A stretch of 64,000 nt of DNA from Billgrantia sulfidoxydans (GTDB lineage: Bacteria > Pseudomonadota > Gammaproteobacteria > Pseudomonadales > Halomonadaceae), in contig NZ_CP053381.1 in NCBI RefSeq assembly GCF_017868775.1, forward strand, positions 310,001-374,000, written 5' to 3'. Position 1 is the first letter of the stretch; every line of letters begins with the position of its first letter. Below the pieces are notes generated by a model, which had not been told where the DNA came from, ran no database searches, and was given only the letters and a program-made list of their open reading frames with translations. Shown piece after piece: positions 2,128-27,535 of this stretch. The position numbers and the translations under genes were made by a program.

Positions 2128-2559
2128 ATGCAGCCGATCGACCCCGGGGTACAGCAACTGCTGGAAATGCCGGAGGAGGCGTACATGAATGCCGCCCAGC
2201 TCGACTACTTCCGGCACCGGCTCCTGGCCGAACAGGCCGAGGTGGAAGGACATCTGGCGGAGGTGCGCCAGGCCATTGGCGACAGCGAGCGTAGCGGTGA
2301 CGACCTTGACCGCGCTGCGGTGGAGGAGGAGCTGCGCCTGCTGTTGCGCCAGGCGGATCGGGAGACGCGGCTGCTGCGCAAGATCCGCCAGGCGCTACGG
2401 CGTATCGAGGAGGGCGACTACGGCTACTGCGCCGAGACCGGTCAGCCCATCGGCCTGCCGCGCCTGCTGCTGCGACCCACGGCCGAGCTGTGCCTGGAGG
2501 CCAAGGAGCGCCAGGAGCAGCGCGAGCATCACTACAGCAAATCGCGAGGAGACCAATGA
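2128..2559 (+). CDS. dksA2: DksA2-type zinc-independent DksA paralogue
   Basis: DksA proteins bind the RNA polymerase secondary channel and work with ppGpp. This 143-aa protein has the coiled-coil tip motif DxxDxA (residues 58-63). In place of the four-cysteine zinc finger it carries Cys101-Thr104 and Cys122-Ala125. This two-cysteine pattern is that of Pseudomonas aeruginosa DksA2, which replaces DksA when zinc is scarce. The upstream Zur box and ribosome site (CAGGAGAAA) support zinc-starvation expression. Its stop overlaps the start of a decayed COG0523 gene, the usual partner in this locus. Confident in family and regulation. Confidence 0.92.
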   Translation: MQPIDPGVQQLLEMPEEAYMNAAQLDYFRHRLLAEQAEVEGHLAEVRQAIGDSERSGDDLDRAAVEEELRLLLRQADRETRLLRKIRQALRRIEEGDYGYCAETGQPIGLPRLLLRPTAELCLEAKERQEQREHHYSKSRGDQ

Positions 2560-4511: not shown

Positions 4512-5951
4512 TCAGGCCAGGGCCGGGTCGAGCTCCGGCTCCGCTTCGCGCAGGCTCCCGTCACTGAGCGCGATCCGCCGGTCGCAGGTGCGCTCGATCA
4601 ATGCCGGATCGTGGCTCACCAGCATTACCCCGCAGCGCCGTTCGCGGGCCAGCTCCACCAGCAGCGCCAGTGTCTGGCGTTGGGTGATGGGGTCGAGGCG
4701 TGAGGTCGGCTCGTCGGCGAACAGGAAGCACGGTTCGAGCAGCAGTACGCGCAGGATGGCGAAGCGCTGCAGCTCGCCGCCCGAGATCTCGCCGGGACGC
4801 CGGGACAGCAGCCGTTCGTCGAGTCCCAGGCGTGCCATCAGCGGGGCGATGGCGCTGCGATCCAGGCGGTGGCGCCGCACCAGGTCGTCGAGCAGACGCG
4901 AGAGCCGCCAGTGGGGTGAGAAGGCCGCCGGCGGATCCTGATAGAGCTTCTGGAAGCCCAGCGGATACCCCGGCGCCCGATAGATCTCGCCATCGTCGGC
5001 ATGCGTCACGCCCAGCAGCATGTCGCCCAGCGTGCTTTTGCCGCAGCCGGAAGGGCCGACCACACCGACGATCTCGCCGGGGCTGACCGTGAGCGAGAGG
5101 TCGTGGAACAGTTCGCGTCCGCCGCGTGCCTTGACCAAACCGCGGGCGCTCACGACCGCCGCCTGTCGCTCGCTCAGCGGTGCCGGGCGCGGCCAGCGGC
5201 CGGGCTCGGCGTCCAGCAGGCGCTGCCCGTACTCGCTTTGTGGGTGAGTGAGCACTTGCTGGGCCGGGCCGCGCTCGACCACCTGGCCCTGGCGCAGGAT
5301 GAGCACTTCGCCGCCGAGGCGGCGGGCCACGTCGATGTCGTGGGTAATGGTGACCAGGGCGCCGCCGCGCTCGGACGTACGCGCCAGCAGTTCGACCACC
5401 GCATCGCGCCTGGGCGCATCGAGCCCCTTGGTCGGCTCGTCGGCGATCACGATGGGGGCGCCGCCGGCACTGGCGGCGGCGAAGGCCACGCGCTGGGCCA
5501 TGCCGCCGGAGAGCTCGCCGGGCAGCTTGGCGCCGGCGTCCACCAGGCCCAGCTCGGTGAGATCGGTCCAGGCGGCCTGGAGCGACGCACGTCGGTCACG
5601 CCCGGCCACGTGGCGGTGGCTCTCGGCGACCTGCGAGATGGCCCGCATGGTCGGGTCCAGCGCGTGCCACGGCTCCTGGGGCAGCAGCGCCAGGCGTCGG
5701 CCCCACAGGGCGCGGCGCGACGTTGGGTCGGCGGCCTCGAACGTCTCGCCGTCGATGACGAGACGCCCCTGGGCGGCAAGTCCACGGGGCAGCGTGCCCA
5801 TGATCGCCTGGGCGATCAGGCTCTTGCCCGAGCCGGTCTCGCCGAGCAGGGTCAGGCGCCCGCCGGGGCCGAGCGAACAGGAGAACGGCGCGATGTTGAC
5901 GCCCTCACCCCGGATCGTCAGGCCTGCGGCCTGAAGTAAGTACGCACTCAT
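4512..5951 (-). CDS. Fused two-domain ABC ATPase of a Zur-linked Nik/Dpp-type importer
   Basis: One 479-aa protein carries two complete ABC ATPase domains, equivalent to a NikD-NikE or DppD-DppF fusion (YejF-like layout). Domain 1 has Walker A GETGSGKS (37-44) and signature LSGGMAQR. Domain 2 has Walker A GPSGCGKST (about 281) and signature ISGGELQR. It is the last gene of a four-gene minus-strand operon with ATGA overlaps at each junction. The ATG at 5951 overlaps the stop of the upstream permease. The operon lies behind a Zur box at 9328, so the likely cargo is zinc, a zinc complex or a related metal complex rather than peptides. Confidence 0.88.
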   Translation of the reverse strand: MSAYLLQAAGLTIRGEGVNIAPFSCSLGPGGRLTLLGETGSGKSLIAQAIMGTLPRGLAAQGRLVIDGETFEAADPTSRRALWGRRLALLPQEPWHALDPTMRAISQVAESHRHVAGRDRRASLQAAWTDLTELGLVDAGAKLPGELSGGMAQRVAFAAASAGGAPIVIADEPTKGLDAPRRDAVVELLARTSERGGALVTITHDIDVARRLGGEVLILRQGQVVERGPAQQVLTHPQSEYGQRLLDAEPGRWPRPAPLSERQAAVVSARGLVKARGGRELFHDLSLTVSPGEIVGVVGPSGCGKSTLGDMLLGVTHADDGEIYRAPGYPLGFQKLYQDPPAAFSPHWRLSRLLDDLVRRHRLDRSAIAPLMARLGLDERLLSRRPGEISGGELQRFAILRVLLLEPCFLFADEPTSRLDPITQRQTLALLVELARERRCGVMLVSHDPALIERTCDRRIALSDGSLREAEPELDPALA

Positions 5952-6775
5952 CGTGGATCCCTCCCCGCCAGCAGATTGAGGCTCAGCACCAGCACGAACA
6001 GCACAAGGATCGGCTGGGCCATGGCCCAGGGCGCCTCGTGGTAGTAGGGCAGCAGCTCGATCATCATCAGCCCCAGTTCGGCGGTGGGCGGTCGCAGGCC
6101 GACGCTGACGAAGCCCAGCGCGGCCATGGCGAGGATCGCGCTGGCGGCGCCGAAGGCGGCCAGGGTCAGCACCTGCGGGGCGAGCTCCGGCCACAGGTGG
6201 CGGCGGAACAGGTAGAACGGACCGAAGCCGAGCAGGCGGCTCGCCTCGAGCTGCGGCGAGGCGATCAGGATGCGGGTGCGGGCCCGTACCACGCGGAAGT
6301 ACTCGATCCACAGTACCAGCGAGATGCCGACGTAGAGCGCCCAGAAGTTGCCCGGGGCGATGGCGACCAGCAGCAGTACCAGCAGCAGGCCGGGCAGCGC
6401 CAGGCAGGCATCGGCCAGGCTGCCCAGCACGCGGTCGAACCAGCCGCCGCGCCAGCCGGCGATGACGCCGAGGATCACGCCCGGCACGGCGGCACTGGCC
6501 ACGCTGAGCAGCGCCATGCCGAACGAGAGCTGTACGGCGGATGCCAGCCGAGCCAGCAGGCTGCGCCCCAGGTGGTCGGTGCCGAGCGGTTCGGCCAGCG
6601 ACGGCAATTGCAGGATGCGCGTCAGCTGCTGGCGCGCCGGGTCGGCATCGAACAGCCAGGGCACCAGCCAGGCGAAGGCGAGCAGCAGCGCCAGCAGCGC
6701 GGCGCCAAGCCGCTGGCGGCCGTTCAGGGCCGGCAAGGCCCAGCGGCGGGAGGGAGTCAGGGCAAGCGTTTTCAT
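5948..6775 (-). CDS. ABC importer permease (NikC/DppC type)
   Basis: Inner-membrane permease of 275 aa, with an N-terminal basic segment followed by a first membrane helix (about 20-40). The binding-protein-dependent transport domain follows, including the LGTDHLGRSLLARL region typical of the DppC/NikC family and an EASRLLGFGPFYLFRRHLWPE coupling (EAA) region. It overlaps its upstream partner by 4 bases (ATGA) and the downstream ATPase by 4 bases, so the proteins are probably translated in fixed ratio. Confidence 0.88.
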   Translation of the reverse strand: MKTLALTPSRRWALPALNGRQRLGAALLALLLAFAWLVPWLFDADPARQQLTRILQLPSLAEPLGTDHLGRSLLARLASAVQLSFGMALLSVASAAVPGVILGVIAGWRGGWFDRVLGSLADACLALPGLLLVLLLVAIAPGNFWALYVGISLVLWIEYFRVVRARTRILIASPQLEASRLLGFGPFYLFRRHLWPELAPQVLTLAAFGAASAILAMAALGFVSVGLRPPTAELGLMMIELLPYYHEAPWAMAQPILVLFVLVLSLNLLAGRDPR

Positions 6776-7767
6776 GCGCTGCGCCTCCTGGGATCGAGCC
6801 AGTGGCAGAGCAGATCTACCACGGTGTTGAGCGCGACGAACATCAGCCCCATTACCAGCGCGGTGCCCTGGATCATCGGCACGTCGCGGGCGACGATGGC
6901 ATGCACCAGGGCGTGGCCGATGCCGGGCCAGGCGAACAGGGTCTCGACCACCACCACGCCCTCGATCAGGTAGACGAACTGCACGCCGAGGTAGGCGATC
7001 ACCGGCACCGCGGCGTTGCGCAGGCCGTGGCGCAGGAAGCTCAGGCGTTCGCCCAGGCCCTTGGTGCGCGAGAAGGCGTAGTAGGCCGACTGCGACACGT
7101 CGGCCATGGCATTGCGCGCCACCCGGCTGGAGATGGCGGCCAGGGCCAGCGCCAGGGTCAGCGCCGGCAGTATCCCATGCGCGAAGCGGCCATGGCCGGC
7201 GGCCGGCAGCCAGCCCAGGGTGACCGAGAAGATCAGGATCAGCACCAGGCCGACGGCGAAGGGGGGCAGGGCGCGCAGCACGCTGGCGGCCACTTCGCTT
7301 ACGCGGTCCAGCGTCCCGTTGGGCTTGAGCCCGGCGAGCAGGCCAAGCGGCGGGCCCAGCAGCAGCGAGAGCAGCACGGCCATCGCCGCCAGGCCCAGGG
7401 AGTGGCCGAGCTGATGCCACAGCTCGGCCACTACCGGCTCGCCGCTGACCAGCGAGCGGCCCAGGTCGAACTGCACCAGGTCCCACAGCCAGCCGAAGTA
7501 GGCGCCGAGCGCCGGCTGGTCCAGCGCCAGTTCGGCGCGTACCGCCTCGGCGGCACTGGTGTTGACCATGTCGTGACCGTAGCGGCCGGCGGCGATGCGG
7601 TAGGCCATGTCGCCGGGCAGCGAACGGGTCAGCACGAAGGTCAGGGTACCGACCATCCAGGCCACCAGCCCGGCCTGGAACAGACGCTGCAGCAGCAGGC
7701 CACCCAGGCCTGCCGTCCTATGAGAAGCCCGGCGCGGTGTCGTTCGTGATGCCAGGGTCACGCTCAT
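6772..7767 (-). CDS. ABC importer permease (NikB/DppB type)
   Basis: Inner-membrane permease of 331 aa. The N-terminal helix with LTRSLPGDMAYRI is typical of the DppB/NikB family, which carries the (L/S)PGDP-like motif after helix 1. The transport domain follows, with an AFSRTKGLGERLSFLRHGLRNA coupling loop. It is the partner of the NikC-type permease that follows and of the binding protein that precedes, each with 4-base overlaps. Substrate specificity cannot be read from the permease alone. Confidence 0.88.
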   Translation of the reverse strand: MSVTLASRTTPRRASHRTAGLGGLLLQRLFQAGLVAWMVGTLTFVLTRSLPGDMAYRIAAGRYGHDMVNTSAAEAVRAELALDQPALGAYFGWLWDLVQFDLGRSLVSGEPVVAELWHQLGHSLGLAAMAVLLSLLLGPPLGLLAGLKPNGTLDRVSEVAASVLRALPPFAVGLVLILIFSVTLGWLPAAGHGRFAHGILPALTLALALAAISSRVARNAMADVSQSAYYAFSRTKGLGERLSFLRHGLRNAAVPVIAYLGVQFVYLIEGVVVVETLFAWPGIGHALVHAIVARDVPMIQGTALVMGLMFVALNTVVDLLCHWLDPRRRSA

Positions 7768-9290
7768 TCACTCCACCTCAGTTCGTCGATGCGATAGCTG
7801 CGCTCCAGTGGGTCGATGGAAAAACCCTCCAGCTCGGCGTCGACCGCGGCGGTCTGCTGGTACCAGGCCACGGGCACGACCGGCATGGCCTCGTTCAGGC
7901 GGCGTGCCACCTGCCCCGCCAGCTCGCTGCGGGCCTCGCTGTCGGCTTCCTGGCGCAGGGTATCGAGCCAGCCGGGCAGGTCGTCGTCGCGCCAGCCCAT
8001 GGCGCCCCAGTCGCCGCCCATCGCTTCGGGATCGGTGCCGAAGTCGTCGAGCAGGGTGCCGAGCGGGTCGGGTACCAGGCCGTAGTTACGCGCCATCAGG
8101 CCCAGCTCCAGGCTGCCGTCGCGATGGCCGAAGGGAATCTCGCTGGCGTTGCCCACGGCGACTTCCAGCGCCACGCCGATCTCACGCCACTGGTCCTGCA
8201 GGGCTGTCGCCACCAGCGGCAGTTCGGGGCGGTCGGAGAAGGTGCGCAGGGTCAGTTGGAACGGTTCGCCGTCGCGCTCGAGCATACCGCTGCCGTTGGC
8301 CTGCCAGCCCAGCTCGGCGAGCATCTCGCGGGCCCGCTCTAGGTCCTGGGCATCGCCGGCGTCGAGGCCGAGGTGCCAGGGGCCCAGGCTTGCCGGGAAC
8401 AGCTCGGCGGCGGCGGCTTCGGGGTCGCGTAGCAGGCCGGCGGCGATGCCCTCGCGGTCGATGGCCAGGCTCAGCGCCTGGCGGGCGCGCTCGTCCTCGA
8501 GGAAGGGATGTTCGGCATTGACCTTGAAGACGATGGTGCGCGGCAGCGGCTCGGCGTGCAGCGCCAGGCGGTCGTTGCGCGCCAGCCGCGCGCGGCTGGC
8601 CGGGTCGAGGGTGAATACCACGTCGGCATCGCCGCTCTCGGCCATCACGGCACGCGTCTCGCCGCGGCCCACCGCCAGGTAGCTGGCGGTGCCGATGGCG
8701 GGTGCCTCGCCCCAGTAGCCGTCGAAACGCTCCACCTCGAGCCGCTGCGGAGGAGCCACGCTCTTTACCCGGTAGGGCCCGGTACCGATCACCTCGGTGA
8801 CACGCTCCTCGTCGTCGAAGGCGCCCGGGGCGAGAATCAGGGTGGTGGAGTGGGCCAGCAGTGCCGGCAGCGGCGCGAAGGGGCTGTCGAGCCGGATCAC
8901 CACCTCGTTGCCCTCGGCCTCGATGGCGGCGATGGGCGCCGAATCGAGGATGCCCGGTTTGGCCAGGGCGTGCTCGAGGCTGGCTGCCGCCGCTTCTGCC
9001 GTCAGCGGGCTGCCATCATGGAAGGTGACGTCTTCGCGCAGCGCGAAGCGCCAGGCCAGTCCATCGTCGCTGGGCTGCCAGGAAGCCGCCAGCCCGGGGG
9101 CGGGCCGGCCATCGGCATCGGTGTCGACCAGGGTCTCGGCGACGCGCATCCGGGCGTAGACATAGCCGGCCGTCGAGGGATCGGCGCCGGTGATCTCCCA
9201 GGGGGCGACCACCGCCAGCGGCCGGTCGGCGGCGGCTGACAGGGGCAGCAGGGCCAGGGCAAGGAGAAGGGAACGAGGGGGTCGCACCAT
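7764..9290 (-). CDS. Periplasmic binding protein of a Zur-linked Nik/Dpp-type importer
   Basis: Solute-binding protein of family 5 (NikA/DppA/OppA), 508 aa, with a signal peptide cleaved near AAADRP (residue about 22). Conserved family blocks are visible: LAASWQPSDDGLAWRFALRED, TFHDGSPLTAEA, GTGPYRV and ALSLAIDREGI. It is the first gene of the operon, 37 bases downstream of a Zur-type operator. Regulation by zinc argues against a peptide role. Zur-controlled family-5 systems such as CntA import opine metallophore-metal complexes in other bacteria, which makes that a reasonable but unproven guess. Nickel uptake is the main alternative. Confidence 0.85.
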   Translation of the reverse strand: MVRPPRSLLLALALLPLSAAADRPLAVVAPWEITGADPSTAGYVYARMRVAETLVDTDADGRPAPGLAASWQPSDDGLAWRFALREDVTFHDGSPLTAEAAAASLEHALAKPGILDSAPIAAIEAEGNEVVIRLDSPFAPLPALLAHSTTLILAPGAFDDEERVTEVIGTGPYRVKSVAPPQRLEVERFDGYWGEAPAIGTASYLAVGRGETRAVMAESGDADVVFTLDPASRARLARNDRLALHAEPLPRTIVFKVNAEHPFLEDERARQALSLAIDREGIAAGLLRDPEAAAAELFPASLGPWHLGLDAGDAQDLERAREMLAELGWQANGSGMLERDGEPFQLTLRTFSDRPELPLVATALQDQWREIGVALEVAVGNASEIPFGHRDGSLELGLMARNYGLVPDPLGTLLDDFGTDPEAMGGDWGAMGWRDDDLPGWLDTLRQEADSEARSELAGQVARRLNEAMPVVPVAWYQQTAAVDAELEGFSIDPLERSYRIDELRWSE

Positions 9291-9327
9291 TGCAGGATCT
9301 TCCTAGCGTAGTCGAAAAATAGGCATG

Positions 9328-9343
9328 TACGTTATAACATAAC
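9328..9343. promoter_or_regulatory. Zur box between the Nik-type operon and the EamA gene
   Basis: The core GTTATAACATAAC (9331-9343) is identical to the core of the dksA2 Zur box read on the other strand. It sits 37 bases before the binding-protein ATG and 177 bases before the divergent EamA ATG. Repression of the leftward operon is the natural reading; an effect on the rightward gene is possible. Confidence 0.82.
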
Positions 9344-9466
9344 TTTTTTGAGTGGAAGCTGCACCTGCCTATATCCCGACCTCGACCTGCCCATGGTTGG
9401 ATGCGTCATTTTGGGGCGACGTACTTGCCGCAGCCTGCACCAGCCATTAGGTTGTTAATCATCAAG

Positions 9467-9501
9467 CCCCGCCGCCCTCTCGGTCGGCGGGGTGGTTTTT
9501 T
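9467..9501 (+). terminator. Intrinsic terminator in the leader of the EamA gene
   Basis: CCCCGCCG (9467-9474) pairs with CGGCGGGG (9485-9492) around a 10-base loop, followed by TGGTTTTTT. It faces rightward and ends 20 bases before the EamA start codon. There is no gene on the plus strand upstream that needs terminating, so it may be a leader attenuator or an insulator. Confidence 0.65.
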
Positions 9502-9520
9502 GGCAGCCGGGAGGGGTGTC

Positions 9521-10396
9521 ATGTCACCGTCGTTGAAGGGGATTCTGTTCATGTGCGCCGGGGTGCTGTGCCTGGCCATCGGCGATGCCATCGCCAAGTG
9601 GCTGGGCGAGGTGCACTCGCCGCTGCAGATCATCTTCTTTCGCACCCTGGTGTCGCTGCCGTTGATCGCGTTGCTGGCCCACTACGGTGGCGGCCTGCGC
9701 AAGCTGCGGACCCGGCGCCCGTTCGTGCATCTGGTGCGCGGCCTGATCTATGCCGGCACCATGGTCTGTTTCGTCTTCGGCTTGACTCTGCTGCCGCTGG
9801 CGGAGGCCACGGCAATTGCCTTCGTCGCCCCGCTGTTCGTCACGCTGCTCTCTGTGCCGCTACTGGGCGAGCGGATCGACCCGCCGGTGCTGGCCGCGTC
9901 GCTGTTCGGCTTCGCGGGGGTGCTGATCGTGGTGCGCCCGGGGGGCGATGCCTTCCAACTGGGTTCGCTGGTGCTCATCGGCGCGGCGCTGTTCTATGCG
10001 CTGATGATGATCACGGCCAGGCGCTACGGCACCACCGAATCCCTCTGGGCCATGGTGTTCTACATGACGCTGGTGCCGATGGTGTTGGCCGCCGTGGCGC
10101 TGCCATGGGTCTGGCAGATGCCCCAGCCCTGGCACTGGCTGGGTTTCTTCGGGGCCGGCGTGGTCGGGGTGGGGGCCACGGCCTGCATCACCATGGCCTT
10201 TCGTTTCGCTCCGGCGGCCATCGCCGCACCGTTCGACTACACCGCCATGCTGTGGGCGGTACTGCTGGGGTGGTGGTTCTGGGGCGAGATGCCCGACGTC
10301 TGGGTGTTCGTCGGCAGCGCCCTGATCATCGGCAGCGGCCTGGCGATCGCCTATCACGACCGCCGGACGACCCTGAAACGCCGCCCGACGTCCTAG
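9521..10396 (+). CDS. EamA/DMT-family membrane transporter
   Basis: Inner-membrane exporter-type protein of the drug/metabolite transporter superfamily, 291 aa. It has about ten predicted helices in two EamA repeats (roughly residues 5-135 and 148-282). The ATG at 9521 was chosen because it follows a strong ribosome site (GGGAGGGG) and begins the first helix (SLKGILFMCAGVLCLAIGDA); a longer in-frame start at 9401 would translate through the terminator hairpin. It faces the Zur-regulated Nik-type operon. In opine-metallophore loci an EamA protein (CntI/PA4834) exports the metallophore, so the pairing is suggestive. Family assignment is firm, substrate unknown. Confidence 0.85.
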   Translation: MSPSLKGILFMCAGVLCLAIGDAIAKWLGEVHSPLQIIFFRTLVSLPLIALLAHYGGGLRKLRTRRPFVHLVRGLIYAGTMVCFVFGLTLLPLAEATAIAFVAPLFVTLLSVPLLGERIDPPVLAASLFGFAGVLIVVRPGGDAFQLGSLVLIGAALFYALMMITARRYGTTESLWAMVFYMTLVPMVLAAVALPWVWQMPQPWHWLGFFGAGVVGVGATACITMAFRFAPAAIAAPFDYTAMLWAVLLGWWFWGEMPDVWVFVGSALIIGSGLAIAYHDRRTTLKRRPTS

Positions 10397-10443: not shown

Positions 10444-11385
10444 TCAGGCCTGAGCGCGATTGAGCCGCCAGCGCCGCCAGTGGCGCGCCACCAAGCCGTG
10501 CCTGGGTGCCGCCAGCAGGGCAAGGAGGAACAGGCCCGAGGCCACCAGCACGATGGCGCCCCCCGAGGCGACGTCCAGCGATACCGACACCACCAGCCCC
10601 ACCACGGCGGAGGTCACGCCGACCGCGACCGAGATCGCCAGCATCGTGGTGAAGCGGTCGGTGAGCAGGTGGGCCGTGGCGCCGGGGGTGATCAGCATCG
10701 CCACCACCAGGATGATGCCCACGGTTTCCAGGCTGGCGACGATGGTCAGCGTCAGCAGCAGGATCAGGCCATAGTGGATCACGCTGGTGCGGAAGCCCAG
10801 CGCCTGGGCCTGCTGCGGGTCGAAGGTATAGAGCAGCAGCGGGCGATAGGCCAGCCAGATCGCCAGCAGCGTCACCGCGCTGGCCAGCAGCGTCAGTAGC
10901 AACGCCGAGGTCTTCACCCCCAGCACGTTGCCGAACAGGATATGCAGCAGGTGGGTGCTGGTGGCGATCTTGCTGATGATCACGATGCCCAGCGCGAAGG
11001 CGGCGGTGAACATCAGCCCCATCGCCGCATCCGACTTGATGCGGGTGTGGCGTTCGATGGCGCCGATGCCCAGCGAGGTCAGCGCGCCGGTGACGAAGGC
11101 GCCGATGAAGAACGGCCAGCCCAGCAGGTAGGCAATCGCCACGCCGGGCAGCACCGCATGGGAAATGGCATCCCCCAGCAGCGACCAGCGCTTGAGCACC
11201 ACGTAGCAGGAGAGCAGCCCGCAGATCGCCCCCACCAGCACCGACGTGAGCAGGGCGCGCTGCATGAAGCGGTACTCGAAGGGCGCGGCCAGGCTCTCGG
11301 GCAGGAGATTGACGAACGCCATCAGCAGTGCCGTCAGCGCATCGACCACCTCCAGGGCGAAGGGCTCAAGCAGCGACACGCGCAC
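10444..11385 (-). CDS. mntB: Manganese/metal ABC transporter permease
   Basis: ABC-3 family metal permease (SitC/MntB/ZnuB type), 313 aa with about eight predicted helices. Family signatures include the early LSCYVVLKRWSLLGDAISHAVLPGVAIAYLLG region. It is the last gene of a three-gene minus-strand operon (binding protein, ATPase, permease) and overlaps the ATPase gene by 20 bases. The operon is divergent from mntR and its binding protein has manganese-type ligands, so manganese is the likely cargo. The C-terminal tail (about 30 residues, basic) extends beyond the last helix. Confidence 0.88.
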   Translation of the reverse strand: MRVSLLEPFALEVVDALTALLMAFVNLLPESLAAPFEYRFMQRALLTSVLVGAICGLLSCYVVLKRWSLLGDAISHAVLPGVAIAYLLGWPFFIGAFVTGALTSLGIGAIERHTRIKSDAAMGLMFTAAFALGIVIISKIATSTHLLHILFGNVLGVKTSALLLTLLASAVTLLAIWLAYRPLLLYTFDPQQAQALGFRTSVIHYGLILLLTLTIVASLETVGIILVVAMLITPGATAHLLTDRFTTMLAISVAVGVTSAVVGLVVSVSLDVASGGAIVLVASGLFLLALLAAPRHGLVARHWRRWRLNRAQA

Positions 11386-12154
11386 CTCCCCGCATGGCGT
11401 CTGGGGTACCTACCGCCAGGCGCGCCAGCATGGTGTCGTTGAGCATCTCGTCCGGGGTGCCCAGGCCGACGAGCGTGCGATTGATCAGCAGCACGTTGTC
11501 GGCATGGACGCGTGCGCTCGGCATGTCGTGGGTCACCATGATGATGGTCCGCCCGGCGCTGCGCTCGCGCTCGAGGGTGGCGAGAATCAGCTTCTCGCTG
11601 GGGGGATCGACCCCTGCCAGGGGCTCGTCGAGCAGCAGGATCCTGGCCTGCTGTGCCAGGGCGCGCGCCAGCATGACGCGCTTCTTCTGCCCCCCGGATA
11701 GCTCACCGATGGGGCGGGCGGCATAGTCGGCCATGTCGACGGCGTCGAGGGCGGCTTCCACCGCCTGGCGATGGTCGGGGTTGGCCCAATGGCGGGGCAG
11801 CAGGCGCTGCCACAGCGGGTCATGGCGCATCAGGCCGTAGCGGCCGGTCAGCACCGTGTCGTGTACCGAGATGGGAAAGTCCCACTCCATGTTCTCCTGC
11901 TGGGCCATGTAGGCGATGTTGCCGGCCCGGCGCTGTGCCGCAGGGCTCCCGCCGAGGATCCGAAGCTCGCCGCGCAGCGGCACGAGGCTGCCGATCACCA
12001 GGTTGAGCAGGCTCGACTTGCCGGCGCCGTTGGGGCCGACGATGGCCGTCCACTGCCCCTGCGGCAGCGCCAGGGTGATGTCCTCGAGCACAGGCTGCTG
12101 GTGATAGGCCGCACAGAGCCGGTGTGCCTGAAGTGCCGGAACGGGGTGGGTCAT
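11366..12154 (-). CDS. mntC: Manganese/metal ABC transporter ATPase
   Basis: ABC ATPase of 262 aa with Walker A GPNGAGKSS (about residue 40), Q-loop AYMAQQENMEWDFPI, signature LSGGQKKR, Walker B ILLLDEP and the switch histidine in MVTHD. The MEWDFPISV sequence after the Q-loop is typical of Mn/Fe/Zn chelate ABC-3 ATPases. The ATG at 12154 overlaps the binding-protein stop (ATGA), which fixes the start; upstream in-frame sequence belongs to the binding-protein gene. It powers the permease encoded immediately downstream. Confidence 0.9.
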   Translation of the reverse strand: MTHPVPALQAHRLCAAYHQQPVLEDITLALPQGQWTAIVGPNGAGKSSLLNLVIGSLVPLRGELRILGGSPAAQRRAGNIAYMAQQENMEWDFPISVHDTVLTGRYGLMRHDPLWQRLLPRHWANPDHRQAVEAALDAVDMADYAARPIGELSGGQKKRVMLARALAQQARILLLDEPLAGVDPPSEKLILATLERERSAGRTIIMVTHDMPSARVHADNVLLINRTLVGLGTPDEMLNDTMLARLAVGTPDAMRGGARVAA

Positions 12155-13059
12155 CGTTCGCCTCCCAGGGTATCGAGCAGTAGCTGGACGTTGTGGCGCA
12201 GCATCCCGGGATAGTCCGGCGCCTCGCCCTCCGGCTCGCTGAGGGAATCGACGTAGAGCGGGCCGGCGATCTTCACTTCGGTCTCGCTGGCCACGCTGCG
12301 CACGTGGCGATCGGAAATCGTGCTCTCCCAGAAGATGGCGGCCGGCTGGCGCTCCTCGATCTTGTCGACGATGCGCATGACCTGATGCGGCGAGCCCTCC
12401 TGCTCGGCATTGTTGCCCCAGATGCCGTCGTGCTCGAAGCCGAAGGCGTCGGCAAAATAGAGGAAGGCCGCTTCGCTGGTGATGAGCAGGCGCCGCTCCT
12501 CGGGAATGGTGGCGAGGGATTCCGTGAGTTCGTCGTGCAGGGCGTGAAGCGATTCTCCCAGCGCCTCGGCACGCGAGCGGAAGGCATCGGCGGCGTCCGG
12601 CCGGGCCTCGGCGAGGACTTCGGCGGCCACCCGGGCGTACTCGGCGGCGGCACGCGGATCCATCCACATGTGCGGGTCGGCCTCGCCGGCGAAGTCGCCG
12701 GTGGCGATCGGCTGGGTCGCATAGCCGCTCTCCTCGGCCAGCGCGACCAGCGGCACGTCGTCACCTATCGTGGCCTCGACCTGGCCGATCCACTGCTCCA
12801 GGCCATAGCCGTTGTAGAGCACGACGTCGGCCTTCTCGAGGGCCACGAAGTTGCTCGGCACCAGTTCCCATTCGTGCACTTCCGCGCCCACCGGGGTCAG
12901 CACCTCGACCTCGGCGTCGTCGCCTGCCACCTCACGCACCAAGTCCCCCAGCACCGAGAAGGTGGTCGCCACCCGGAGCGGCGACTCCTCGGCATGGGCC
13001 GTGTTCGACAAGGCCAGCGCAAGGGCGCTGAGCAGCATCCATCCCCTGGGAAGCGGCAT
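12151..13059 (-). CDS. mntA: Periplasmic manganese-binding protein (TroA/PsaA family)
   Basis: Cluster A-I metal-binding lipoprotein/periplasmic protein, 302 aa, with a cleavable signal ending near HAEES (residue about 23). Ligand positions are readable: His62 (VHEWE), His130 (DPHMWMD), Glu196 (TSEAAF) and Asp271 (YVDSLS). The His-His-Glu-Asp set is that of manganese-type binders such as PsaA, whereas zinc types have a third histidine. There is no histidine-rich loop, unlike the ZnuA encoded at 23567. It is the first gene of the operon, behind a palindrome that is a candidate MntR operator, and has an AGGAG ribosome site. Confidence 0.9.
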   Translation of the reverse strand: MPLPRGWMLLSALALALSNTAHAEESPLRVATTFSVLGDLVREVAGDDAEVEVLTPVGAEVHEWELVPSNFVALEKADVVLYNGYGLEQWIGQVEATIGDDVPLVALAEESGYATQPIATGDFAGEADPHMWMDPRAAAEYARVAAEVLAEARPDAADAFRSRAEALGESLHALHDELTESLATIPEERRLLITSEAAFLYFADAFGFEHDGIWGNNAEQEGSPHQVMRIVDKIEERQPAAIFWESTISDRHVRSVASETEVKIAGPLYVDSLSEPEGEAPDYPGMLRHNVQLLLDTLGGER

Positions 13060-13129
13060 CGGGTCACTCTCCTATGACGTCAGGGCCGTTGAATGTGGGT
13101 TGTTTCGTTACAGTGAGTTTCTGAGTGCA

Positions 13130-13147
13130 TGGCTAATATTTTAGCCA
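13130..13147. promoter_or_regulatory. Candidate MntR operator
   Basis: TGGCTAATATTTTAGCCA is a perfect 7-4-7 inverted repeat in the mntA/mntR divergent intergenic region. Its location, 71 bases upstream of mntA, makes it the obvious candidate for binding by the adjacent regulator. A related half (TTGGCTATATTGGC) overlaps the mntR -10 region at about 13210-13223. Confidence 0.6.
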
Positions 13148-13190
13148 AGGTTAACTTGTAGGGTAGTAGGAAATCTCTATCGGTGCACTG

Positions 13191-13220
13191 TTGCTGCCCT
13201 ATCAGGACATTGGCTATATT
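13191..13220 (+). promoter_or_regulatory. Predicted mntR promoter (possibly leaderless transcript)
   Basis: TTGCTG (13191-13196), an 18-base spacer and TATATT (13215-13220) resemble a sigma70 promoter. The expected start of transcription, about 7 bases after the -10, coincides with the mntR ATG at 13227. No ribosome site lies at the normal distance, so the mRNA may be leaderless. Confidence 0.5.
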
Positions 13221-13226
13221 GGCGCG

Positions 13227-13709
13227 ATGACCGACACCCCAGATGACGTGACGCCGGATCGCCTTTGCAAGGCGGATGCCCTGCCGCCCAGCGACCAGCA
13301 TGCGCAGCAGTATGCTGCCGTGCGCAATGCCCATGAAACCGAGCTGCTCGAGGATTACGTCGAGTTGATCGCCCACTTGCTGAAGCATCAGGGCGAGGCG
13401 CGTTCGACCGATATCGCCGCGCGGATGGGGGTCAGCCAGGCCACGGTGTCGAAGACCGTGACCCGGCTCAAGGCGCTGGGGCTGGTCTCCAGCAAGCCCT
13501 ATCGTTCGCTGTTCCTGACGGAAAAGGGAGAAGCCATGGCGGCCATGTCGCATCAGCGTCATGCCATCGTGCTGCAGTTCCTGCGTGCCCTCGGCGTCAG
13601 CGATCGCATTGCGCGCATCGATGCCGAGGGCATGGAGCATCACGTCAGCCAGGAGACCCTGGACATCATGCAGCGCTATACCCGCGAGCAGGAGCGTCGC
13701 GGTTCCTGA
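13227..13709 (+). CDS. mntR: Manganese-responsive regulator MntR
   Basis: DtxR-family metalloregulator, 160 aa. A winged helix occupies roughly residues 45-105 (RSTDIAARMGVSQATVSKTV, then LFLTEKGE). A dimerisation/metal domain follows. The metal ligands known from Bacillus MntR can be traced: a histidine in QRHAIV and the E..EH set in DAEGMEHH. Divergent transcription from mntACB indicates it represses Mn import when Mn is plentiful. The start at 13227 is the first ATG; the alternative TTG at 13191 lies in the predicted -35 element. The N-terminal ~35 residues are longer than in Bacillus, as in other proteobacterial MntR. Confidence 0.92.
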   Translation: MTDTPDDVTPDRLCKADALPPSDQHAQQYAAVRNAHETELLEDYVELIAHLLKHQGEARSTDIAARMGVSQATVSKTVTRLKALGLVSSKPYRSLFLTEKGEAMAAMSHQRHAIVLQFLRALGVSDRIARIDAEGMEHHVSQETLDIMQRYTREQERRGS

Positions 13710-24681: not shown

Positions 24682-25572
24682 TCAGTGCGGTTCTGGCGAG
24701 CCGAGCGGTACGGCATGACGCTGGAGCTTCGCCCTCAGGCTGTGATGGCGGCCGAGCAGGGCGGAGAGCACGTAGCCCACGCCCGCCAGCAGGATGATGG
24801 CCGGACCCGATGGAACGCTGAGGTGGTAGGAGAGCAGCAGGCCGCCGAGGCTGGCGAAAACGGCCAGCAGGATGGCGATGGTGATCAGCCCCTCCAGGCG
24901 CTTGCTCCAGAAGCGCGCCGTGGTGGCCGGCAGCATCATCAGGCCCACGGCCATCAGGGTGCCCAGGGTCTGGAAGCCGGCGGTGAGGTTGAGCACCACC
25001 AGGCCGAGGAAGACGCCGTGCACCAGGCTTCCCTGCATACCCTGGCCGCGCAGGAACAGTGGATCGAGGCACTCCACCACCAGGGCGCGAAAGATCAGCG
25101 CCAGGGTAATCACAATGACGCTGCTGATCGCCGCGATCAGCACCAGCGCGGTGGTATTCACCGCCAGGATCGAGCCGAACAGCACATGCGTCAGGTCAAC
25201 GCTACTGCCGCCCAATGAGACGAGCATCACGCCCGCCGCCAGCGAGATCAGGAAGAAGCTGGCCATGGCCGAGTCCTCGCGATGGCCGGTCATCTGCGAC
25301 ACGCTGCCGGCCAGCACCGCGATCAGCAGCCCCGACAGCACGCCGCCCAGGCTCATGACCGGCAGCGAGAAGCCTGCCAGCAGGAAGCCCAGCGCCACGC
25401 CGGGCAGGATGGCATGGGCCATGGCATCGCCGATCAGGCTCATGCCACGTAGCATCAGGAACACGCCCATGGGCGGTGCGGCCAGCGACAGGGCCAGGCC
25501 GGCCACTGCGGCGCGGCGCATGAAGCCGTAGTCGAAGGGGGCGATCAACCACTCGTGAAGCAGCGCTAGCAT
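24682..25572 (-). CDS. znuB: Zinc ABC transporter permease ZnuB
   Basis: ABC-3 family permease, 296 aa, about eight helices, with the conserved LMLRGMSLIGDAMAHAILPGVALGFLL segment. It overlaps znuC by 7 bases and precedes znuA by 35 bases. It is closely related in sequence to the lone permease at 26594, so the two are paralogues that probably arose by duplication. Confidence 0.92.
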   Translation of the reverse strand: MLALLHEWLIAPFDYGFMRRAAVAGLALSLAAPPMGVFLMLRGMSLIGDAMAHAILPGVALGFLLAGFSLPVMSLGGVLSGLLIAVLAGSVSQMTGHREDSAMASFFLISLAAGVMLVSLGGSSVDLTHVLFGSILAVNTTALVLIAAISSVIVITLALIFRALVVECLDPLFLRGQGMQGSLVHGVFLGLVVLNLTAGFQTLGTLMAVGLMMLPATTARFWSKRLEGLITIAILLAVFASLGGLLLSYHLSVPSGPAIILLAGVGYVLSALLGRHHSLRAKLQRHAVPLGSPEPH

Positions 25573-26477: not shown

Positions 26478-26494
26478 AGATATAACATAACAAG
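26478..26494. promoter_or_regulatory. Zur box upstream of the znuCBA operon
   Basis: AGATATAACATAACAAG matches the other three sites at the TATAACATAAC core. It lies 26 bases before the small ORF and about 175 before znuC, in the 141-base gap after the lone permease gene. Confidence 0.78.
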
Positions 26495-26593: not shown

Positions 26594-27493
26594 TCAGCGC
26601 AGCTGACCGGCATGCCGGGACCCTATGCCGCGCTTCGGTCTGCTGGCGTTCGCCCTCAGCCCCCGGTAGGGGCCCAGCACGAGCGACATGCCATACCCCA
26701 GCCCCGCCAACAGGATAATCGATGGGCCGGAAGGCAGGCCAGCGTGATAGGACACCAGCAGTCCCGCCATGCTGGAAGCCAGGGCGATGCCGATCGCGAT
26801 GGCGATCATGCCCTCGAGGCGCTGGCTCCAGTAGCGTGCCGCCGCGGCAGGTAGCAGCATGAGCCCGGCTGCCATCAGGGTTCCCAGCGTCTGAAATCCC
26901 ATTACCAGACCGATCACGACCAGCACCATGAACAGCGCGTGCGTCCAGCCGGCGTGGCGACCCTGAAGTGTCAGGAACAGCGGATCGAGGCACTCGACCA
27001 CCAGCGCGCGAAAGGAGATGGCCAGGCCGACCAGGAGCGTGCTGCTGCCAAGCGCCACCAGCCCCAGCGTGCGGTCATCCACCGCCAATATGCTGCCGAA
27101 CAGCACGTGGCCGAGATCCAGGGCGCTGCCCGAATGGCTGACGATGGTCACTCCGCCGGCCATGGCGATCAAGAACAGGCTGGCCATGGCGGCATCCTCC
27201 CTGAGGCCGCTGAACTGCGTTACGCCACCGGCAAGCGCCACGGTGACCAGGCCCGCCAGTACGCCGCCGAACATCATCAGTGGGAGGGAAAAGCCGGCCA
27301 GCATGAAGGCGATGGCCACGCCCGGCATGATGGCATGCGAGAGCGCCTCGCCCATCAGGCCCATGCCGCGCAGCGTCAGCAGCACGCCGAGAATCGGTGC
27401 CGTAAGGGAAAGCGCAAGGCAGGCCACCAGGGCGCGGCGCATGAAGACGTAGTCGAAAGGTGACGTGAGCCACCAGTGCAGAGTATCGAGCAT
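26594..27493 (-). CDS. Second ZnuB-type permease, no ATPase or binding protein of its own
   Basis: ABC-3 metal permease of 299 aa, clearly paralogous to the ZnuB at 24682: both share FDYVFMRRA/FDYGFMRRA, LRGM.L.G.A..HAI.PGVA, LFGSILAV and CLDPLFL segments. It has its own Zur box 26 bases upstream and is transcribed toward znuC. No ATPase or binding protein accompanies it, so it may pair with ZnuC/ZnuA as an alternative permease, form heterodimers with ZnuB, or be a duplicate on the way out. The frame is intact. Confidence 0.88.
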   Translation of the reverse strand: MLDTLHWWLTSPFDYVFMRRALVACLALSLTAPILGVLLTLRGMGLMGEALSHAIMPGVAIAFMLAGFSLPLMMFGGVLAGLVTVALAGGVTQFSGLREDAAMASLFLIAMAGGVTIVSHSGSALDLGHVLFGSILAVDDRTLGLVALGSSTLLVGLAISFRALVVECLDPLFLTLQGRHAGWTHALFMVLVVIGLVMGFQTLGTLMAAGLMLLPAAAARYWSQRLEGMIAIAIGIALASSMAGLLVSYHAGLPSGPSIILLAGLGYGMSLVLGPYRGLRANASRPKRGIGSRHAGQLR

Positions 27494-27518: not shown

Positions 27519-27535
27519 ATGTTATATCATAACAT
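27519..27535. promoter_or_regulatory. Zur box upstream of the lone ZnuB-type permease
   Basis: ATGTTATATCATAACAT is the most symmetrical of the four sites (ATGTTAT / ATAACAT). It lies 26 bases before the permease ATG. Confidence 0.83.

Follow-up and report, generated by a model that had tools for sequence, protein, structure and literature searches.

A predicted Zur-controlled operon of Billgrantia sulfidoxydans that probably encodes an accessory zinc importer

Organisation of the importer operon

A 64,000-nucleotide stretch of Billgrantia sulfidoxydans DNA (C1:310001-374000 of the 4.49-Mb single-contig genome), which we call the window, contains four genes for an ATP-binding cassette (ABC) importer, preceded by a predicted Zur binding site (Zur box) and facing an EamA-family gene. 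The analysis presented here suggests that these genes probably encode an accessory cluster C ABC importer (NikA/Dpp family) that is repressed by Zur and takes up zinc, most likely complexed with a small ligand. The operon and its box have the following features:

7764-9290, minus strand: substrate-binding protein of family 5 (SBP_bac_5, PF00496), NikA-like, 508 amino acids (aa), with a signal-peptide-like start
6772-7767, minus strand: ABC permease 1 of the NikB/DppB type (BPD_transp_1, PF00528); NCBIfam Opp2B 291 bits, cut-off 350
5948-6778, minus strand: ABC permease 2 of the NikC/DppC type (BPD_transp_1, PF00528); NCBIfam Opp2C 172 bits, cut-off 300
4512-5951, minus strand: fused double ATPase, 479 aa, a NikD-like half followed by a NikE-like half, with two PF00005 (ABC_tran) stretches
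9331-9343, no strand: predicted Zur box core GTTATAACATAAC of the importer operon, an exact palindrome 40 bases 5' of the ATG of the binding-protein gene

The open reading frames (ORFs) and the protein families bore out the four-gene layout given in the initial annotation of this DNA, in which one fused double ATPase follows a family-5 binding protein and two permeases. Successive genes overlap by 4, 7 and 4 bases according to their coordinates, so the four genes almost surely form one coupled operon. Each half of the fused ATPase carries a Walker A motif and an LSGG/ISGG signature in its sequence, NikD and NikE were among the best NCBIfam models for the first and the second half, respectively, and no oligo_HPY domain was listed in the Pfam scan of this protein. 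The nearest NCBIfam models for the importer proteins were of the Nik/Opp type and all of them were below cut-off. None of the importer proteins scored above a cut-off among the models listed (for the ATPase, the best 25 of 187 models) and none reached the equivalog cut-offs of NikABCDE, the scores in bits and the respective cut-offs being 165 and 393 for NikA, 234 and 447 for NikB, 163 and 358 for NikC, 233 and 319 for NikD, and 205 and 333 for NikE. The closest named relatives of the binding protein came from Billgrantia and Halomonas species, and public records that went beyond 'ABC transporter' gave peptide or nickel as the label for its relatives.

The predicted Zur box

The box core GTTATAACATAAC has the palindromic layout GTTAT-N3-ATAAC; for comparison, a Zur box of Pseudomonas aeruginosa is given as GTTATagtATAtC in the available text of PMC5719457. 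The exact core occurred three times in the whole 4.49-Mb genome, always inside the window, and these three copies precede a dksA2-like gene, the importer operon and a gene for an AztB/ZnuB-type permease. When one mismatch was allowed, four matches were found in the window versus 0.09 expected. In the genome there were 11 places at one mismatch versus 16 for the reversed control pattern, so that one-mismatch sites are informative only together with their context. The other predicted boxes of the window were these:

2092-2104, no strand: exact Zur box before another predicted target, the dksA2-like gene 2128-2559 (plus strand)
27521-27533, no strand: exact Zur box before the AztB/ZnuB-type permease gene 26594-27493 (minus strand)
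26479-26491, no strand: Zur box with one mismatch, 5' of the AztABC/ZnuABC-like genes from 26306 to 23567 (minus strand)

The zinc-finger motif of the DksA-type gene product retains two of its four cysteines. A further one-mismatch site was localised directly 5' of a CobW gene (C1:2185902). The genome encodes two Fur-family proteins, one of which (L002, at C1:2288771) we judged to be Zur from its sequence and the features of the family. A sigma-70 promoter scan of positions 9250-9600 gave no match, and an Rfam search of positions 9100-9700 for a riboswitch or leader gave nothing at E values up to 1.

Conservation of the operon and of its box in other genomes

At E <= 1e-60, the binding protein was found in 29 of 151 genomes of the bacterial family, and its protein family comprised at least 1413 members. 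The comparison within the bacterial family covered the operon and its flanks in 27 of the 28 other genomes, with G032, in which a contig end cuts the binding protein, being omitted; single steps of the work used subsets (24 of those 27 genomes, 72 of 120 listed proteins, and 64 of 80 loci in the ORF clustering). A box with up to one mismatch was present within 1.9 kb 5' of the binding-protein gene in 24 of the 27 relatives (a manual count, with no shuffle control for this span), and in some of these 24 the box preceded a DUF1826 or permease gene that lies before the binding-protein gene.

In a set of 80 named loci, mostly from Gamma-, Alpha- and Betaproteobacteria, the four-gene order was kept in 75. 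Of the other five, four were at contig ends and one (L089) had a binding-protein gene without permease genes beside it. The box was then scored in the 300 bases that end 40 bases into the gene, for those 58 of the 80 loci with less than 65% identity. In 27 of these 58 loci there was a box with no more than one mismatch, versus 2 for the reversed pattern; at the same threshold, 19 palindromes of the same letters matched in 0.8 loci on average (maximum 3 of 58) and random segments of these loci in 0.5% of cases. With up to two mismatches the box was present in 41 of the 58 loci, the same-letter palindromes having a mean of 8.3 and a maximum of 18, and the random segments a rate of 4%. With a limit of one mismatch, 32 of all 80 loci had a box, versus 3 for the reversed pattern. 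The initial annotation had already placed a Zur box before this Nik-like importer, and on sequence evidence the predicted site proved to be exact and conserved in orthologues.

When the 17 loci of the window's own clade (L070-L082, L086, L088, L090 and L092) were set aside, 15 of the 63 remaining loci had a zinc-type neighbour within 9 kb, namely a relative of zur, of Zn/Mn-type ABC genes, of CobW or of DUF1826 (a raw count without a background rate). Either such a neighbour or a box with up to one mismatch was present in 40 of the 63, and 54 of the 63 had one or the other when boxes with two mismatches were also counted. The box was kept across Gamma- and Alphaproteobacteria, and several Betaproteobacteria had zinc-type ABC or CobW neighbours instead. 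A DUF1826 gene was present within 9 kb in 15 of the 80 loci. Two plasmids of Paracoccus aestuarii each carry the importer next to a zinc ABC transporter, and for one of these plasmids a Fur-family gene is listed in between; in Pantoea ananatis the importer operon lies beside zigA, and in Pseudosulfitobacter it lies behind a gene for a GTP-binding protein. The box of the Agrobacterium vitis operon, GTAACGATATAACAT, was identical to a site of Paracoccus denitrificans zur listed in the available part of PMC5387054. These genome comparisons support the importer as a predicted conserved member of the zinc-starvation response, wider than the initial annotation had seen.

Individual loci showed some additional features. 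In L044, L049, L051, L054 and L101 a DUF1826 gene was located just 5' of the binding-protein gene or operon, and no such gene is present in the window. A relative of the window permease 26594-27493 sits between the box and the binding-protein gene in L049, L051 and L054. The two plasmid loci of P. aestuarii (L180 and L181) contain the importer plus zinc ABC genes and share one zinc binding-protein accession. In L182, on a Sulfitobacter plasmid, the importer lacks a Zur box and is preceded by genes for a 3-keto-5-aminohexanoate cleavage protein and an aminotransferase, suggesting that some members may have another cargo or another control.

Comparison with known systems

The kind of operon described here is already known, because a Zur-bound operon of the same layout has been published for Paracoccus, its substrate being left unassigned in the available text of that paper (PMC5387054). 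As described there, the P. denitrificans cluster pden1338-1344 encodes a COG0523 protein, two hypothetical proteins, a Ni/dipeptide-type binding protein, two permeases and one ATPase. In zinc-depleted medium its genes were up 8.6- to 16-fold (12.6- to 16-fold for pden1341-1344), the motif GTAATATAATAACAT was located 26-40 bases 5' of pden1341, and Zur shifted that promoter; the authors regarded Zur control of a cluster C transporter as somewhat unusual and left the specificity open (PMC5387054). The likeness between pden1341-1344 and the operon of the window is one of layout and promoter motif, taken from the published description: both have the order binding protein, permease, permease and single ATPase gene, and both have a Zur motif just 5' of the binding-protein gene, that of the window being a predicted one. 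In contrast, the P. denitrificans importer is preceded by the COG0523 gene and the two hypothetical genes, whereas here the box stands directly before the binding-protein gene. By analogy with these published findings, Zur may be expected to bind, and zinc limitation to induce, the operon of B. sulfidoxydans as well. A member from the Rhodobacterales had a gene for a GTP-binding protein, a small gene and the importer in a row, as in the pden1338-1344 type. Pden1341 itself was not found by name among the matches listed, including the 120 obtained with an alphaproteobacterial relative as query; the nearest named Paracoccus copies were those of P. aestuarii, 52% identical to the binding protein of the window.

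Two gene sets of Corynebacterium diphtheriae, dip2162-2165 and dip2125-2128, are both described as zinc- and Zur-regulated in the available text of PMC6711530. The first of them resembles the operon studied here in having a NikA/OppA-like binding protein, two permeases and an ATPase (PMC6711530). It differs in being actinobacterial, divergent from sidAB (nonribosomal peptide synthetase/polyketide synthase) and also iron- and DtxR-regulated, and there are no such flanking genes here. The staphylopine importer CntABCDF of Staphylococcus aureus, which takes in a metal-metallophore complex, likewise has a family-5 binding protein and Nik-type permeases, as stated in passages of PMC6711530 and PMC5719457; unlike the importer of the window, it uses two ATPases that have models of their own, CntD and CntF, and the CntA model reached 128 bits here against a cut-off of 800.

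The ZnuABC/AztABCD systems (cluster A-I) share the predicted regulator with the importer and are encoded near its operon in the window and in several other genomes. However, they have a binding protein of another family, the cluster A-I protein tested from the window (12151-13059) belonging to PF01297 and not to PF00496. NikABCDE of Escherichia coli, which is under NikR control, was among the closest NCBIfam models and folds, but it has separate NikD and NikE genes, and its nickel-site His416 is not retained here.

ZniCBA of Rhizobium (PMC12183173) and the zinc machinery of Sinorhizobium (PMC7029138) were considered as relatives and rejected, since the available descriptions assign them to other transporter classes. 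No passage on such an importer was found in the available text of the Zur review PMC6103462 or, by term search, in that of the COG0523 paper PMC2770081, and no paper on the importer in Halomonas-type bacteria was among the matches listed in the open-licence literature.

Proposed function of the importer

We propose that zinc scarcity would release Zur from the box (9331-9343), allowing leftward transcription of all four genes as a single coupled unit. In the periplasm, the binding protein would most likely capture zinc complexed with a small ligand. Transport of this cargo into the cell would then be the task of the two permeases, with the fused ATPase supplying the energy. The importer would supplement the AztABC/ZnuABC-type importer whose genes lie 14 kb away, probably as a backup, and the EamA gene would be a separate unit outside the importer system. 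As the same zinc-starvation switch is predicted here and in many distant bacteria, the importer probably brings in zinc. A complex is favoured over bare zinc because, according to their PDB titles, the family-5 metal importers of known structure bind a metal together with a small ligand, and because the genome already encodes AztC/ZnuA-type proteins for bare metal ions. The initial annotation had chosen zinc or a zinc chelate rather than nickel or a dipeptide; its zinc part was strengthened by membership in the zinc response (the kept box, the zinc neighbours and the Paracoccus operon), and its chelate part appears plausible on the two grounds just given.

Several observations weigh against this proposal. 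The presence of the binding protein in only 29 of the 151 family genomes suggests that the importer is dispensable, and in L058 and L089 the binding protein stands apart from its permeases. Of the 63 loci outside the clade, 9 had neither a box with up to two mismatches nor a zinc neighbour, and two of the seven plasmid operons examined (L182 and L188) had no box. In addition, the family-5 fold is common to nickel, peptide, heme-type and opine binders, and an arginine that is invariant in the binding protein (Arg354) would be compatible with a peptide or an amino acid as ligand, too. Deducing the substrate from the fold was tried and rejected because many family-5 folds match.

Placement in the zinc response would give a testable function to a large protein family, and it bears on two matters raised in published work. 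One is the inner-membrane importer of the pseudopaline-metal complex, still unknown in 2017 according to the available text of PMC5719457, and the other is the specificity of the Zur-bound cluster C importer of P. denitrificans, as left by the authors of PMC5387054.

The binding pocket and alternative cargoes

Pocket residues were compared in a sequence alignment of 73 proteins. In DppA, Asp436 anchors the amino group of the peptide and Arg383 anchors its carboxylate. The position of Asp436 was occupied by Leu in 71 of the 73 proteins and by Val in the other two, whereas Arg383 was kept in all 73, as Arg354. The position of NikA His416 was Gly in 72 proteins and Ala in one, with gaps nearby in the alignment. 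The title of PDB entry 3qim states that His416 is essential to nickel uptake, and that of entry 8z1z mentions a D436R change. By alignment, the pocket would therefore be one without the amino anchor of DppA and without the metal histidine of NikA.

A more specific form of the zinc proposal can be put forward tentatively. The binding protein may be one of a distinct and widespread subfamily whose members capture zinc together with a small organic ligand, either scavenged or self-made, and in which GGDWGAM-x-W replaces the histidine loop of NikA, the carboxylate-binding Arg is kept and an invariant His389 is added. If this were true, a zincophore-type inner-membrane importer would exist across Proteobacteria without known opine biosynthesis genes, which would make the ligand a new or an environmental zinc chelator.

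The alternative that survives best is that zinc starvation induces the operon but the cargo is a zinc-free nutrient, such as a peptide, an amino acid or a zinc-sparing metabolite. We consider it rather unlikely: the invariance of the carboxylate-anchoring Arg, the many peptide importers included in family 5, and the non-transport genes found in Zur regulons (the dksA2-like gene of the window being an example) are all in line with it, but the amino-group anchor is replaced in every one of the 73 proteins, the Pfam scan of the ATPase revealed no oligo_HPY domain, and the importer is repeatedly found close to zur and zinc-type ABC genes. That the operon encodes a nickel or cobalt importer, either under Zur control and replacing zinc or as an ordinary Nik system, appears less probable still. 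Although nickel binders were present both among the nearest NCBIfam models and among the PDB folds near the binding protein, the scores were far under the cut-offs of all five Nik proteins, the His416 position is Gly in almost all of the aligned sequences, and the box is Zur-like.

The EamA gene and its linkage to the importer

Two features lie beyond the Zur box, on the side opposite to the operon:

9521-10396, plus strand: EamA-family transporter (PF00892), 291 aa, judged to be outside the importer system
9467-9501, plus strand: rho-independent terminator, stem CCCCGCCG/CGGCGGGG followed by T6, between the Zur box and EamA

The EamA-family gene reported opposite the operon in the initial annotation was indeed present. 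Its start at 9521 aligns with the starts of the orthologues, and a longer ORF would begin at 9401; 9521 is most likely the correct start because the terminator sits inside the longer ORF.

The same annotation had viewed the importer and the EamA protein as the import and export halves of an opine-like zincophore system served by one Zur box. P. aeruginosa does export pseudopaline via an EamA protein, CntI, according to the available text of PMC5719457, and 13 of 17 aligned EamA genes had a box within 260 bases 5', making a divergent effect on EamA possible. However, a terminator was seen by eye between the box and EamA in 10 of the 17 aligned loci, and in L070, L079 and L088 some 5.2 kb separate the EamA gene from the importer, and the 260 bases 5' of EamA contain no box. 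Of the 80 loci, 16 had EamA at a distance of up to 9 kb from the importer. All 16 belong to one clade, and EamA was that close in none of the 63 loci outside that clade, 54 of which include at least 2.5 kb of upstream DNA. An EamA orthologue was found in 93 of the 151 family genomes, that is, in 21 of the 29 with the importer and in 72 of the 122 without it (counts by hand; Fisher p = 0.21), so there was no co-occurrence. In an opine-metallophore system the exporter would be expected in the same Zur-controlled unit, and the observations on the EamA gene go against this. On the basis of the terminator, the missing linkage outside the clade and the independent occurrence, EamA was rejected as the partner exporter, and the import/export pairing is very improbable.

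The search also covered genes for synthesis and outer-membrane uptake of a metallophore. Nicotianamine-synthase and opine-dehydrogenase genes, noted before as missing from the window, were not found in the whole genome either. Nicotianamine synthase (PF03059) had no match there, with a control match in Methanosarcina and under the assumption that CntL fits PF03059. The opine dehydrogenase CntM (PF10100) had no match in the genome itself, in 151 genomes of the family or in 274 of the class, a non-detection that is weakly supported because there was no positive control match. The check for a Zur-linked TonB receptor that had been suggested earlier gave five receptor matches in the genome, none of them within 25 kb of a box with up to two mismatches.

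The remaining alternative, a chance match to the Zur box in front of an ordinary Nik/Dpp importer, is in keeping with the one-mismatch places in the genome being fewer than those of the reversed control, but it too is highly improbable, since the box is exact and is kept 5' of orthologues well above the controls.

The stretch 9440-9501 before EamA (TTAG, the hairpin and T6) was kept in 10 of the 17 loci and had no Rfam match; it could be an attenuator of EamA. On its other side, EamA borders on an ABC operon of the manganese type, which includes an MntR regulator (10444-13709; NCBIfam PRK11050 above cut-off). In the named loci, mntB was within 1.5 kb of EamA in 9 of 16 and not in the remaining 7.

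Other observations in the window

Two genes for AztB/ZnuB-type permeases (26594-27493 and 24682-25572) lie near each other, with a Zur box before each unit. At 2566-2985, 3' of the dksA2-like gene, inspection by eye revealed the remnant of a ZigA/CobW-type GTPase gene, of which only the C-terminal part is left, with an internal stop. A full-length ZigA/CobW-type gene is present in the relatives L043-L047, and near the same place in L049 and L051. Finally, a lone gene for Hcp, the tube protein of type VI secretion, was found near the dksA2-like gene, at 1343-1861, and the copies seen in relatives were 96-100% identical.

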